A DNA stretch of 34,214 nucleotides, from contig JANYBQ010000020.1 of NCBI GenBank assembly GCA_025360705.1, forward strand, positions 1-34,214. Reading direction: 5' to 3'. The notes under the pieces were generated by a model, which ran no database searches, was not told the DNA's origin, and worked only from the letters and a program-made list of their open reading frames with translations. The first letter of the stretch is position 1; each line of letters begins with the position of its first letter. This DNA is from Betaproteobacteria bacterium. Lineage in GTDB: Bacteria > Pseudomonadota > Gammaproteobacteria > Burkholderiales > Burkholderiaceae_C. Positions 14,655-19,532 of this stretch are shown here, piece by piece. A program made the position numbers and the translations under genes.

Positions 14655-15551
14655 TCAAGGGAATCTGCGCGGCTCCAGCGCGCGGGCCATCTCGATGTGC
14701 GGCACGTCCGCCTCCATAAACGGCTTACCGATTGCGTTGAACCCCAAGCGGGAATAGAACTCCTGCGCACTGCATTGGAAAGACAACACCACGCGGGTAT
14801 CGCCGCGTTCAGCAGCATGCTGCATCAGCAAATGCACAACCGTGCGGCCAAGACCGGTGGCACGCAGAGCACTGCTGACAGCCACCCGGGCAATTCTCGC
14901 TATGCCCGGACCCTCCTGCATCAAGCGCCCTGTCGCCACCGCCTGGCCCAGGCGATTCAAAACCAGCGCGTGTACCGAATCGAGATCGGAGGCATCCTGC
15001 CCCAAGCCCGGATCGATCTTGAACTCCTCCACAAAAACCGACTGGCGCAGCGCGCCGGCTTGCGTCCCGAGATCGCCCCACGAACCCAGGCGCACCTCCA
15101 TCGGCGACAAGTTGGCTTCATACGACTCCAACAGATCGCGCAGGACCGGCGGAACCGGTTTCGGCATTTGTGTTGCCGGGTCGGCAAACACATAAACCAT
15201 TTCAGCGTCGACCAGCAATGTATCGCCCCGGAAAATTGCGCCGCGAAAAAGCACGGATGAATTACCGATACGCTGGCACTTCATGCCTATATCCAGCAAG
15301 TCGTCCAAGCGCGCCGACCCGTGATATTCGAGGCTTGATTTTTTTACATACAGGTCCCCTCCCAGCGCTGCCGGTATGGACTCGTAGGGGATGGCCAGCG
15401 CGCGCCAATAATCGGTGAAAGCCACGTCGATGTACATCAGGTAATGCGGATTGAAAACAATACGCTGCATGTCCACCTCTGCCCAGCGCACGCGCAGGCG
15501 GTGGTTGAGGCGGAAATCCTCTCGGCTCGGTTGGCGGGTCGGTGCATTCAT
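14655..15551 (-). CDS. YbgC/FadM-type acyl-CoA thioesterase fused to GNAT (ElaA-like) N-acetyltransferase
   Basis: Start 15551 ('MNAPTRQPSREDFRLNHRLRVRWAEVDMQRIVFNPHYLMYIDVAFTDYWR' is a hotdog thioesterase start); C-terminal 'GIARIARVAVSSALRATGLGRTVVHLLMQHAAERGDTRVVLSFQCSAQEFYSRLGFNAIGKPFMEADVPHIEMARAL' is GNAT. Confidence 0.88.
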   Translation of the reverse strand: MNAPTRQPSREDFRLNHRLRVRWAEVDMQRIVFNPHYLMYIDVAFTDYWRALAIPYESIPAALGGDLYVKKSSLEYHGSARLDDLLDIGMKCQRIGNSSVLFRGAIFRGDTLLVDAEMVYVFADPATQMPKPVPPVLRDLLESYEANLSPMEVRLGSWGDLGTQAGALRQSVFVEEFKIDPGLGQDASDLDSVHALVLNRLGQAVATGRLMQEGPGIARIARVAVSSALRATGLGRTVVHLLMQHAAERGDTRVVLSFQCSAQEFYSRLGFNAIGKPFMEADVPHIEMARALEPRRFP

Positions 15552-15617
15552 GAAGTGGATTGGGGCCGGGCTTGTTGTTGCTACAGTGTGTCGCTTCATC
15601 CTACATCGCGAATTGCC

Positions 15618-16754
15618 ATGGCATTGATCTATTACCTGACCCAGATCCAGTTTGAATTTGGCGCCATCAAGCTGCTGCGCCAGGAGTGCGATAGGGTCGG
15701 CATATTGCGCCCTTTGATCGTGACGGACCAGGGCGTCAAGGCGGCCGGCATTCTGCAAAAGGCGCTGGACGTATTGCCCGGCATGCCGGTGGCGGTATTC
15801 GACCGGACGCCGTCCAATCCAACCGAGGCCGCCGTGCGGGCCGCAACCGAACTGTTTCACTCCAAGTCGTGCGATGGGCTGATCGCCGTTGGTGGCGGTT
15901 CGGCCATCGACTGCGCCAAAGGCGTGGCGATCGCCGCCCGGCACGAAGGACCGCTGAAAAACTACGCCACGATAGAAGGCGGTTCCACACGCATCAGCGA
16001 TCGTGCCGTGTCACTGATCGCCGTGCCCACCACCAGTGGTACCGGCAGCGAAGTCGCGCGTGGCGCGATCCTGATTCTGGACGATCACCGCAAGCTCGGC
16101 TTTCATTCCTGGCACCTGCTGCCAAAGGCCGCCATTTGCGACCCCGAACTCACACTCGGCTTACCGGCCCGTCTGACCGCCGCCACCGGCATGGACGCGG
16201 TTGCGCACTGCATGGAAACTTTCATGGCGCCGGCCTTCAATCCGCCGGCCGATGGCATCGGGCTGGACGGGCTGGAACGGGCCTGGCATTTTATTGAACG
16301 CGCCACCAGGGATGGCGACGACCGCGAGGCGCGCTTCAACCTGATGAGTGCGTCCATGCAGGGCGCCATGGCCTTCCAGAAGGGCCTGGGCTGCGTGCAT
16401 TCACTGAGTCACAGCCTGGGCGGCATCGACCTGCGGCTGCACCATGGCACGCTCAATGCGATGTTCCTTCCGGCCGTGGTTGCATTCAATTCGCAGGCCG
16501 AGTCGGTTCAAAAGGAACGGCGCCTGGAACGGATGGCGCGGGTCATGGGATTGAAGTCGGCGGGTGACATACCGGCTGCCATAACCGATATGAATGCCCG
16601 CCTGGGGTTGCCAACCGGGCTCGCCGCCATGGGTGTGCACGCGGCGCAGTTCGAGCAGATCGTCACCGGAGCGCTGGTGGACCACTGCCATAAAACCAAT
16701 CCGCGCATCGCCACCGCGGATGAATACCGGGCGTTGCTGGATCGGGCCATGTAG
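15618..16754 (+). CDS. iron-containing alcohol dehydrogenase
   Basis: 'DGLIAVGGGSAIDCAKG', 'AVPTTSGTGSEV', metal ligands 'GMDAVAHCMETF', 'CVHSLSHSLGG', 'LHHGTLNA'. Confidence 0.93.
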   Translation: MALIYYLTQIQFEFGAIKLLRQECDRVGILRPLIVTDQGVKAAGILQKALDVLPGMPVAVFDRTPSNPTEAAVRAATELFHSKSCDGLIAVGGGSAIDCAKGVAIAARHEGPLKNYATIEGGSTRISDRAVSLIAVPTTSGTGSEVARGAILILDDHRKLGFHSWHLLPKAAICDPELTLGLPARLTAATGMDAVAHCMETFMAPAFNPPADGIGLDGLERAWHFIERATRDGDDREARFNLMSASMQGAMAFQKGLGCVHSLSHSLGGIDLRLHHGTLNAMFLPAVVAFNSQAESVQKERRLERMARVMGLKSAGDIPAAITDMNARLGLPTGLAAMGVHAAQFEQIVTGALVDHCHKTNPRIATADEYRALLDRAM

Positions 16755-17803: not shown

Positions 17804-18616
17804 TCATCGACGGTTCTGCAAGGTCCAGTCGATCGGATCCTGCTGCAACACCATGTCGATGTCCAGTGCCAGCACTTCACCGACCGCACCTGGAAAACTG
17901 ACGGCCATTTGACGCTGGTTCATGCGTGCATCCTTGGCGCGGGCGCGCCAAGCCGCCAAATGGATCACGCCGGCCAGCGGTTCGTAAGCATCCTGGTCGA
18001 ACGGCGCGTCCTGATGCTCCAGCGCCTCGACGATTGGCAGCGGAAACAGCCACTTGCGCGCCAGTCCCGCGCCAACCTGAGCATAGCTGTAACCGAACGC
18101 CCGGCACTCGGCCATTGCGCGCCGCGGATCCAGGGCCGGCACGTCAGCGTCGAGCGTGGCCATGTCAGCCGGCATCGCGATGCGCATTGCCAATTCACCC
18201 ATCAGATGAATCAGACCGGCGGTAAATGCCGCTTGCTGGTGCTGCTGCACCACGCCTGCCAGCGAGCGGGAGACCTTGGCAACGTCCAGGCTGTAGTTCC
18301 AGTAGTGCTGCAAGTTGATGCCAGGCACCGCTTTCATCGAAGCGCTGGTAGCCGAGGCCGTCACCATGGTACGAACGTGGCCGAGGCCAACCAGCGCCAG
18401 CGACTCCGACACACTGTGAATACGCTGGGACAGCTGGAAAAAACCTGAATTGGACAGTTGCAGCAGGCGTGTCGTAAGCGCCGGGTCGGTGCTGATGAGC
18501 AGCGTAATTTTTTTCAGATCCGGCTCCTCCCGCTCCAGTTCACTCAGCAACAAGGCTACTACTTTGGGGATGCTGGGGAGGGTGAACTGGGAGGCCAGGA
18601 GGGAATTCAGTTGCAT
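17804..18616 (-). CDS. HDOD domain protein
   Basis: 'FTLPSIPKVVALLLSELEREEPDLKKITLLISTDPALTTRLLQLSNSGFF' and 'FTAGLIHLMGELAM' are HDOD features. Confidence 0.87.
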   Translation of the reverse strand: MQLNSLLASQFTLPSIPKVVALLLSELEREEPDLKKITLLISTDPALTTRLLQLSNSGFFQLSQRIHSVSESLALVGLGHVRTMVTASATSASMKAVPGINLQHYWNYSLDVAKVSRSLAGVVQQHQQAAFTAGLIHLMGELAMRIAMPADMATLDADVPALDPRRAMAECRAFGYSYAQVGAGLARKWLFPLPIVEALEHQDAPFDQDAYEPLAGVIHLAAWRARAKDARMNQRQMAVSFPGAVGEVLALDIDMVLQQDPIDWTLQNRR

Positions 18617-18654
18617 GGAACGCAGGCTCCGGTCAGGTTAAAGCGCAAACGTCG

Positions 18655-18707
18655 AATTATCGATGGCTTGCATCGATTCGCAGTGTCGATGCAAGCCATC
18701 GATAATT
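18655..18707. repeat. perfect 22-bp inverted repeat with 9-nt loop in a divergent intergenic region
   Basis: AATTATCGATGGCTTGCATCGA (18655-18676) - TTCGCAGTG - TCGATGCAAGCCATCGATAATT (18686-18707). Verified base by base as exact reverse complements. Confidence 0.95.
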
Positions 18708-18773
18708 GGCAGTAAGATTTTGCGCCAAAGGCAGACCTAGTTCCCATCAAGCAAATCCATCGAGAGAGAAGTA

Positions 18774-19532
18774 ATGGTTCATTGCATTGTTCAAGCCTTG
18801 GCATGTGTTGCCTGTGCTTCAGCGGCGAGCGCATTTGCGATGGCAAATAGCTGCATTGCGCAGTCCGGCGCAGGCATTACGCCGGTGGTGGAGCTCTATA
18901 CCTCTGAGGGGTGCAGCTCATGTCCGCCGGCGGATCGCTGGGTTTCGGGCCTGAAGCGGCAGGCAGGCGACAGTCCGATGCCAGTTATAGAAGCTTTTCA
19001 TGTGGGGTACTGGGACTACATCGGCTGGATCGACCGTTTTGCCAGCCCGGAATACACCGCACGTCAGCGGCAAATCGCCAGTTGGAACCAGCAGCGTTCC
19101 ATCTATACCCCGCAGGCAGTGTTCAACGGCCAGGACTGGCGCGACTGGAATTCGGCCGGCAATACCTTGCCGGTGAGCAAGGAGCCAGCCCATGCTTCCA
19201 TCAGTTTGAAACAACTCGGCGCTGACCAGTTCGAAGCAGTTGTCACGGCGGACACAAAAGCGCCCGCTTCGTGGAGCGCTTACTGGACCGTGACCGAACA
19301 CGGCCATAGCTCCAAAGTGAAAGCCGGCGAAAACGCCGGTGAGTTGCTGCAGCACGACTATGTGGTGCGCCAGTACACGCCGGCCGGCGACTATCGCAGC
19401 GACCCAGCTACATCACAGAAGCTGACGTTGCGCTCCATCAGCGCCACACCGGGCCACGCACGTCAGATCAATCTGGTAATTTTCGACAACCGGACCGGCA
19501 GGACACTACAGGCGGTCTCAGCCGGTTGTTGA
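18774..19532 (+). CDS. DUF1223 family (thioredoxin-like, probably exported) protein
   Basis: 'VVELYTSEGCSSCPPADRWVSGL' CxxC motif, 'FHVGYWDYIGWIDRFASPEYTARQ', 'IYTPQAVFNGQ'; N-terminal signal-like segment. Confidence 0.9.
   Translation: MVHCIVQALACVACASAASAFAMANSCIAQSGAGITPVVELYTSEGCSSCPPADRWVSGLKRQAGDSPMPVIEAFHVGYWDYIGWIDRFASPEYTARQRQIASWNQQRSIYTPQAVFNGQDWRDWNSAGNTLPVSKEPAHASISLKQLGADQFEAVVTADTKAPASWSAYWTVTEHGHSSKVKAGENAGELLQHDYVVRQYTPAGDYRSDPATSQKLTLRSISATPGHARQINLVIFDNRTGRTLQAVSAGC

Follow-up and report, generated by a model that had tools for sequence, protein, structure and literature searches.

A perfect 22-bp inverted repeat between two conserved divergent promoters of a Rhodoferax-like bacterium: a candidate lineage-specific inverted duplication

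Introduction

Several described systems bear on a perfect inverted repeat that lies between divergent genes. In E. coli, replication template switching that turns quasi-palindromes into perfect ones is documented (PMC7202029). The products there, like the sequence described here, are short inverted repeats that are perfect or closer to perfect than before, but those mutations are seen from a known precursor, whereas in the present case the precursor is not at hand and the origin has to be deduced. Bidirectional promoters with symmetric -10 elements (Warman et al., cited in PMC12825309) also carry -10 boxes on both strands of symmetric DNA. There, however, the start sites lie on either side of one shared -10 element, whereas our locus has two outward -10 boxes about 40 bp apart and, unlike those promoters, what appears to be a separate ECF-like promoter for one of its genes, DUF1223. 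The operators of dimeric repressors at divergent promoters share with it the presence of palindromic half-sites between divergent genes; our repeat differs from them in having no visible regulon, no conservation in the relatives searched and no candidate regulator among the window ORFs scanned, and in that its non-contact positions are complementary as well. REP/BIME and MITE repeats are likewise intergenic palindromes, but they are multicopy, and the repeat studied here occupies one locus.

Results

The window analysed is a stretch of 34,214 nt from the genome of an uncultured Rhodoferax-like member of the Comamonadaceae (a 94% complete assembly with 5.18 Mb on 701 contigs); the features discussed below are collected in Table 1. 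As a preliminary description of this DNA had claimed, nucleotides 18655-18707 form a perfect inverted repeat, with 22-bp arms complementary at 22/22 positions around a 9-nt loop, and no ORF accounts for it. The TCGATG/CATCGA half-sites begin at 18660, 18671, 18686 and 18697, in agreement with the earlier positions, and the possible fifth CATCGA does begin at 18758. Both arms are in turn interrupted palindromes, TCGATG-N5-CATCGA, and the centres of these two dyads are spaced 26 bp apart, which places them on opposite faces of the helix. The 10 of the 22 arm positions that fall outside the half-sites, spacer and AATT positions among them, are likewise perfectly complementary.

Table 1. Positions of the inverted repeat, the flanking genes and their promoter elements in the window
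Feature	Position	Strand	Remarks
HDOD-domain gene	17804..18616	-	PF08668, E 2e-44
Left arm of perfect inverted repeat	18655..18676	.	
GATAAT, -10 box of HDOD gene, outer edge of left arm	18656..18661	-	ATAAT conserved in relatives
Loop, 9 nt, TTCGCAGTG	18677..18685	.	
Right arm	18686..18707	.	exact reverse complement of left arm
GATAAT, mirror copy of -10 box facing DUF1223	18701..18706	+	possible second promoter
GTAAG-N16-AGAC, ECF-sigma-like DUF1223 promoter, GTAAGATTTTGCGCCAAAGGCAGAC	18712..18736	+	motif in 50/70 relatives' loci
DUF1223 gene	18774..19532	+	PF06764, E 2e-47

The repeat is genuine and statistically extreme, far above chance. When 40 sequences matching the window in length and dinucleotide composition were simulated, the arms of their longest perfect repeats measured 8-13 bp, and in 642 kb sampled from the host genome the runners-up were two repeats with 17-bp arms, so that 18655-18707 alone is longer. 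The hairpin-forming ability proposed earlier was borne out: folded as single-stranded DNA, the sequence gives -25.4 kcal/mol (z = -8.2). The two 17-bp-arm repeats of the same genome (L177:15140-15177 and L229:3122-3173) contain no T runs, lie just upstream of or between genes, and are unrelated in sequence to 18655-18707.

The repeat does lie between divergent genes, as had been described, but at 38 bp from the HDOD start codon (18616) and 66 bp from the DUF1223 start codon (18774) rather than at 39 and 67 bp. It is upstream of both genes and we found no terminator-like site, which upholds the earlier exclusion of an intrinsic terminator. The gene order itself has a history. A tex gene adjoins the HDOD gene in four related genomes (G001, G002, G004 and G006), in G002 and L037 the far side of tex carries an intact DUF1223 gene, and G003 has a gap of a size that would fit tex. 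In the host genome and in G005, the HDOD and DUF1223 genes are adjacent, divergent and 157-158 bp apart. No tex homologue was found in these two assemblies; weak matches only (38-39% identical over 69-118 residues, in the C-terminal part) were seen, and they are probably S1 domains of other proteins. Because both genomes have the two genes adjacent and divergent without tex, the G005 junction (L151, also L039) is the right comparison for the window. Elsewhere in the window, on the minus strand at 14655-15944, a single ORF joins thioesterase (4HBT) and GNAT acetyltransferase domains.

The preliminary description had overlooked that the repeat is positioned exactly between two conserved promoters. 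On the left, the GATAAT at its outer edge is the conserved -10 box of the HDOD gene itself, as judged from comparison of sequences. In 23/36 relatives ATAAT is present 30-66 nt ahead of the HDOD start codon, against 0.5 in shuffled sequences, and rearranged versions of the same five letters occur in at most 2 of these 36; in the nearest relatives the box is GATAAT or CATAAT, at almost equal distance. On the right, the DUF1223 promoter motif starts 5 bp past the edge of the repeat. GTAAG-N16-VGAC was found upstream of DUF1223 at 50/70 loci, compared with 0.2 in shuffles, and 48 DUF1223 loci have the CGAC form with a spacing of exactly 16. The consensus is approximately TGTAAGAA-N15-CGACCAA, and the motif precedes DUF1223 in most Comamonadaceae loci (L035-L100); the window motif departs slightly from it, with AGAC instead of CGAC, and the L151 version is GTAAGATTTTTCGCCGGCAGCCGAC.

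A stricter form of the motif gave seven sites in 41 genomes, none of them in the window's genus; besides the DUF1223 loci, the motif was noted on L278, L280, L281 and L283. Three of the stricter sites are upstream of MsrP-like genes (periplasmic methionine sulfoxide reductase), one precedes a DUF2282-like gene, and one precedes the gene of a short protein that contains cysteine and resembles an anti-sigma factor, all named by our reading of the sequences. A two-block motif of fixed spacing, present upstream of both DUF1223 orthologues and stress genes, is the pattern looked for in an ECF-sigma promoter, and its sharing suggests that DUF1223 belongs to a set of genes controlled by an ECF sigma factor in response to oxidative stress of the envelope.

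The mirror copy of the -10 box, at the right-hand outer edge, is of a different kind. ATAAT is found upstream of the DUF1223 gene at 1/69 loci in relatives, so the most natural interpretation of the right-hand GATAAT is that it was copied from the HDOD -10 box. It forms part of the sole sigma-70 consensus match in the region, TTCGCA-18-GATAAT, and possibly adds a sigma-70 promoter facing DUF1223; if the box is active, a further plus-strand start would be expected near 18713. We had at one stage considered it the sole DUF1223 promoter, and dropped that view once the conserved GTAAG-N16-CGAC motif appeared.

From the positions of these elements, transcription is predicted to start near 18649 (minus strand) and 18743 (plus strand). 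Both putative start sites are outside the repeat, which would therefore be promoter DNA and not mRNA. The repeat was also rejected as a structured RNA: the best Rfam score, 33 bits against 50 for 23S-methyl, was below the gathering score. The strong fold, together with this placement outside both predicted transcripts, could be taken to mean that the hairpin is itself functional, a cruciform or single-strand hairpin selected because it separates the promoters or senses supercoiling. Its extrusion in the cell is putative, however, and relatives do not conserve it; we think such a role improbable.

We observed no inverted repeat with arms of at least 8 bp at the matching G005 junction (L151). 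The distance from ATTATCG to GTAAG is 12-13 nt there, compared with about 50 in the window, where nearly all of it is repeat, and on alignment of the two a 36-nt block of the repeat faces a gap. With up to 3 mismatches allowed, the 22-bp arm was matched nowhere else in the host genome or in six congeners. The preliminary description would have counted its readings refuted by absence from close relatives' orthologous regions and from the rest of the genome, combined with a deletion that affects neither gene; of these, the two absences were found, the first in the one relative compared. Its suggestion of a dispersed repeat fails on the same data, the single genomic locus ruling out a multicopy REP/MITE. 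An artefact of assembly or library might be suspected in so fragmented an assembly, but a 53-bp element is short enough for one short read, and sequence homologous to L151 is collinear again on both sides. The return of normal sequence after the right arm makes a snap-back library chimera unlikely, and we regard an artefact of either kind as very improbable indeed.

The extra block relative to L151 can also be parsed as a very small mobile element, a remnant or an insertion: a 33-bp unit, GGCTTGCATCGA...TCGATGCAAGCC, that ends in 12-bp inverted repeats and is flanked by ATCGAT duplications in direct orientation. ATCGAT is palindromic, however, and its direct repetition follows automatically from a perfect inverted repeat. 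There is, moreover, no second copy in the host genome or the six congeners, and searches of phage, plasmid and IMG/VR viral-contig sequences returned no match to the repeat. We give this reading little credence.

An operator, which the preliminary description had also put forward, merits fuller consideration. A dimeric repressor bound at the two TCGATG-N5-CATCGA sites, over the spacer and -10 box of the HDOD promoter and beside the DUF1223 -35, would co-regulate both genes, and both the symmetric array of four half-sites and its position over one promoter and next to the other are in keeping with such a protein. Yet TCGATG-N5-CATCGA has one additional site in the host genome, and this site and the thirteen congener sites examined all fall within ORFs 100 or more codons long, so that no regulon is visible. 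The repeat is missing from G005 and the congeners; palindromes are not enriched in the HDOD promoters of relatives (mean arm 4.0 versus 3.9 in shuffles, with none comparable); and the window ORFs scanned, which took in part of the short ones, yielded no regulator. The dyad centres also face opposite sides of the helix. Finally, the spacer and AATT positions are perfectly complementary too. A protein that reads the half-sites would not require 10 extra complementary positions. The data lend the operator no support, and we consider it unlikely, although less remote than a functional hairpin. A family-wide operator had been set aside as well: among 401 family genomes, the 17-mer at up to 1 mismatch is found in 27 (host included), scattered and nearly always as a single site, and the one exact match outside the host, on L123, falls in what looks like the end of a coding sequence for a PhoU-like protein.

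Discussion

We propose, with about even confidence, that the repeat is a lineage-specific inverted duplication, produced most likely by a replication template switch (snap-back) at a quasi-palindrome between the HDOD and DUF1223 promoters. The short stretch between the promoters would have undergone the switch, with the left outer edge as source and the right as copy, so that the HDOD -10 region was copied outward. Complementarity through the whole of both arms, including the positions beyond the half-sites, is what such an event would leave. Its presumed effects would be to push two promoters that had all but touched some 38 bp away from each other and to set a second outward -10 box before DUF1223, and no dedicated binding protein would be necessary. 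By comparison with G005, where the promoters almost touch, the repeat would indeed separate them; any effect on expression is putative.

Several observations weigh against an inverted duplication. The sole relative sharing the junction (L151) is too diverged in its intergenic DNA for the ancestor to be rebuilt, and the interrupted palindrome within each arm is not explained by duplication alone. No imperfect precursor was seen, this diverged junction being the only comparable one. With a single, diverged relative the ancestral state is unproven, and possibly the repeat was lost in G005 instead of gained in the host. The arms are still perfect; therefore, either the event is recent or the repeat is maintained.

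A more elaborate account would have the vegetative HDOD promoter and the DUF1223 stress promoter nearly overlap after the loss of tex, with the duplication then fixed since it separated them and gave DUF1223 a copied promoter of the sigma-70 type. We regard this birth of a promoter by inverted duplication as improbable; if true, it would be a compact natural case in which a -10 box was copied and rewired a neighbour after gene loss. The repeat looks confined to one lineage and of a known mutational class; it resembles a copying error of recent date, perhaps with local consequences, rather than a regulatory switch conserved among relatives. The case illustrates how even a conspicuous palindrome among promoters can be an accident of sequence in one lineage and not an operator.

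The DUF1223 promoter is of interest apart from the repeat. DUF1223 is a little-studied family, reportedly named in one paper about peroxiredoxin-like domains (PMC3091736), and the conserved motif would tie it to a probable envelope oxidative-stress regulon.
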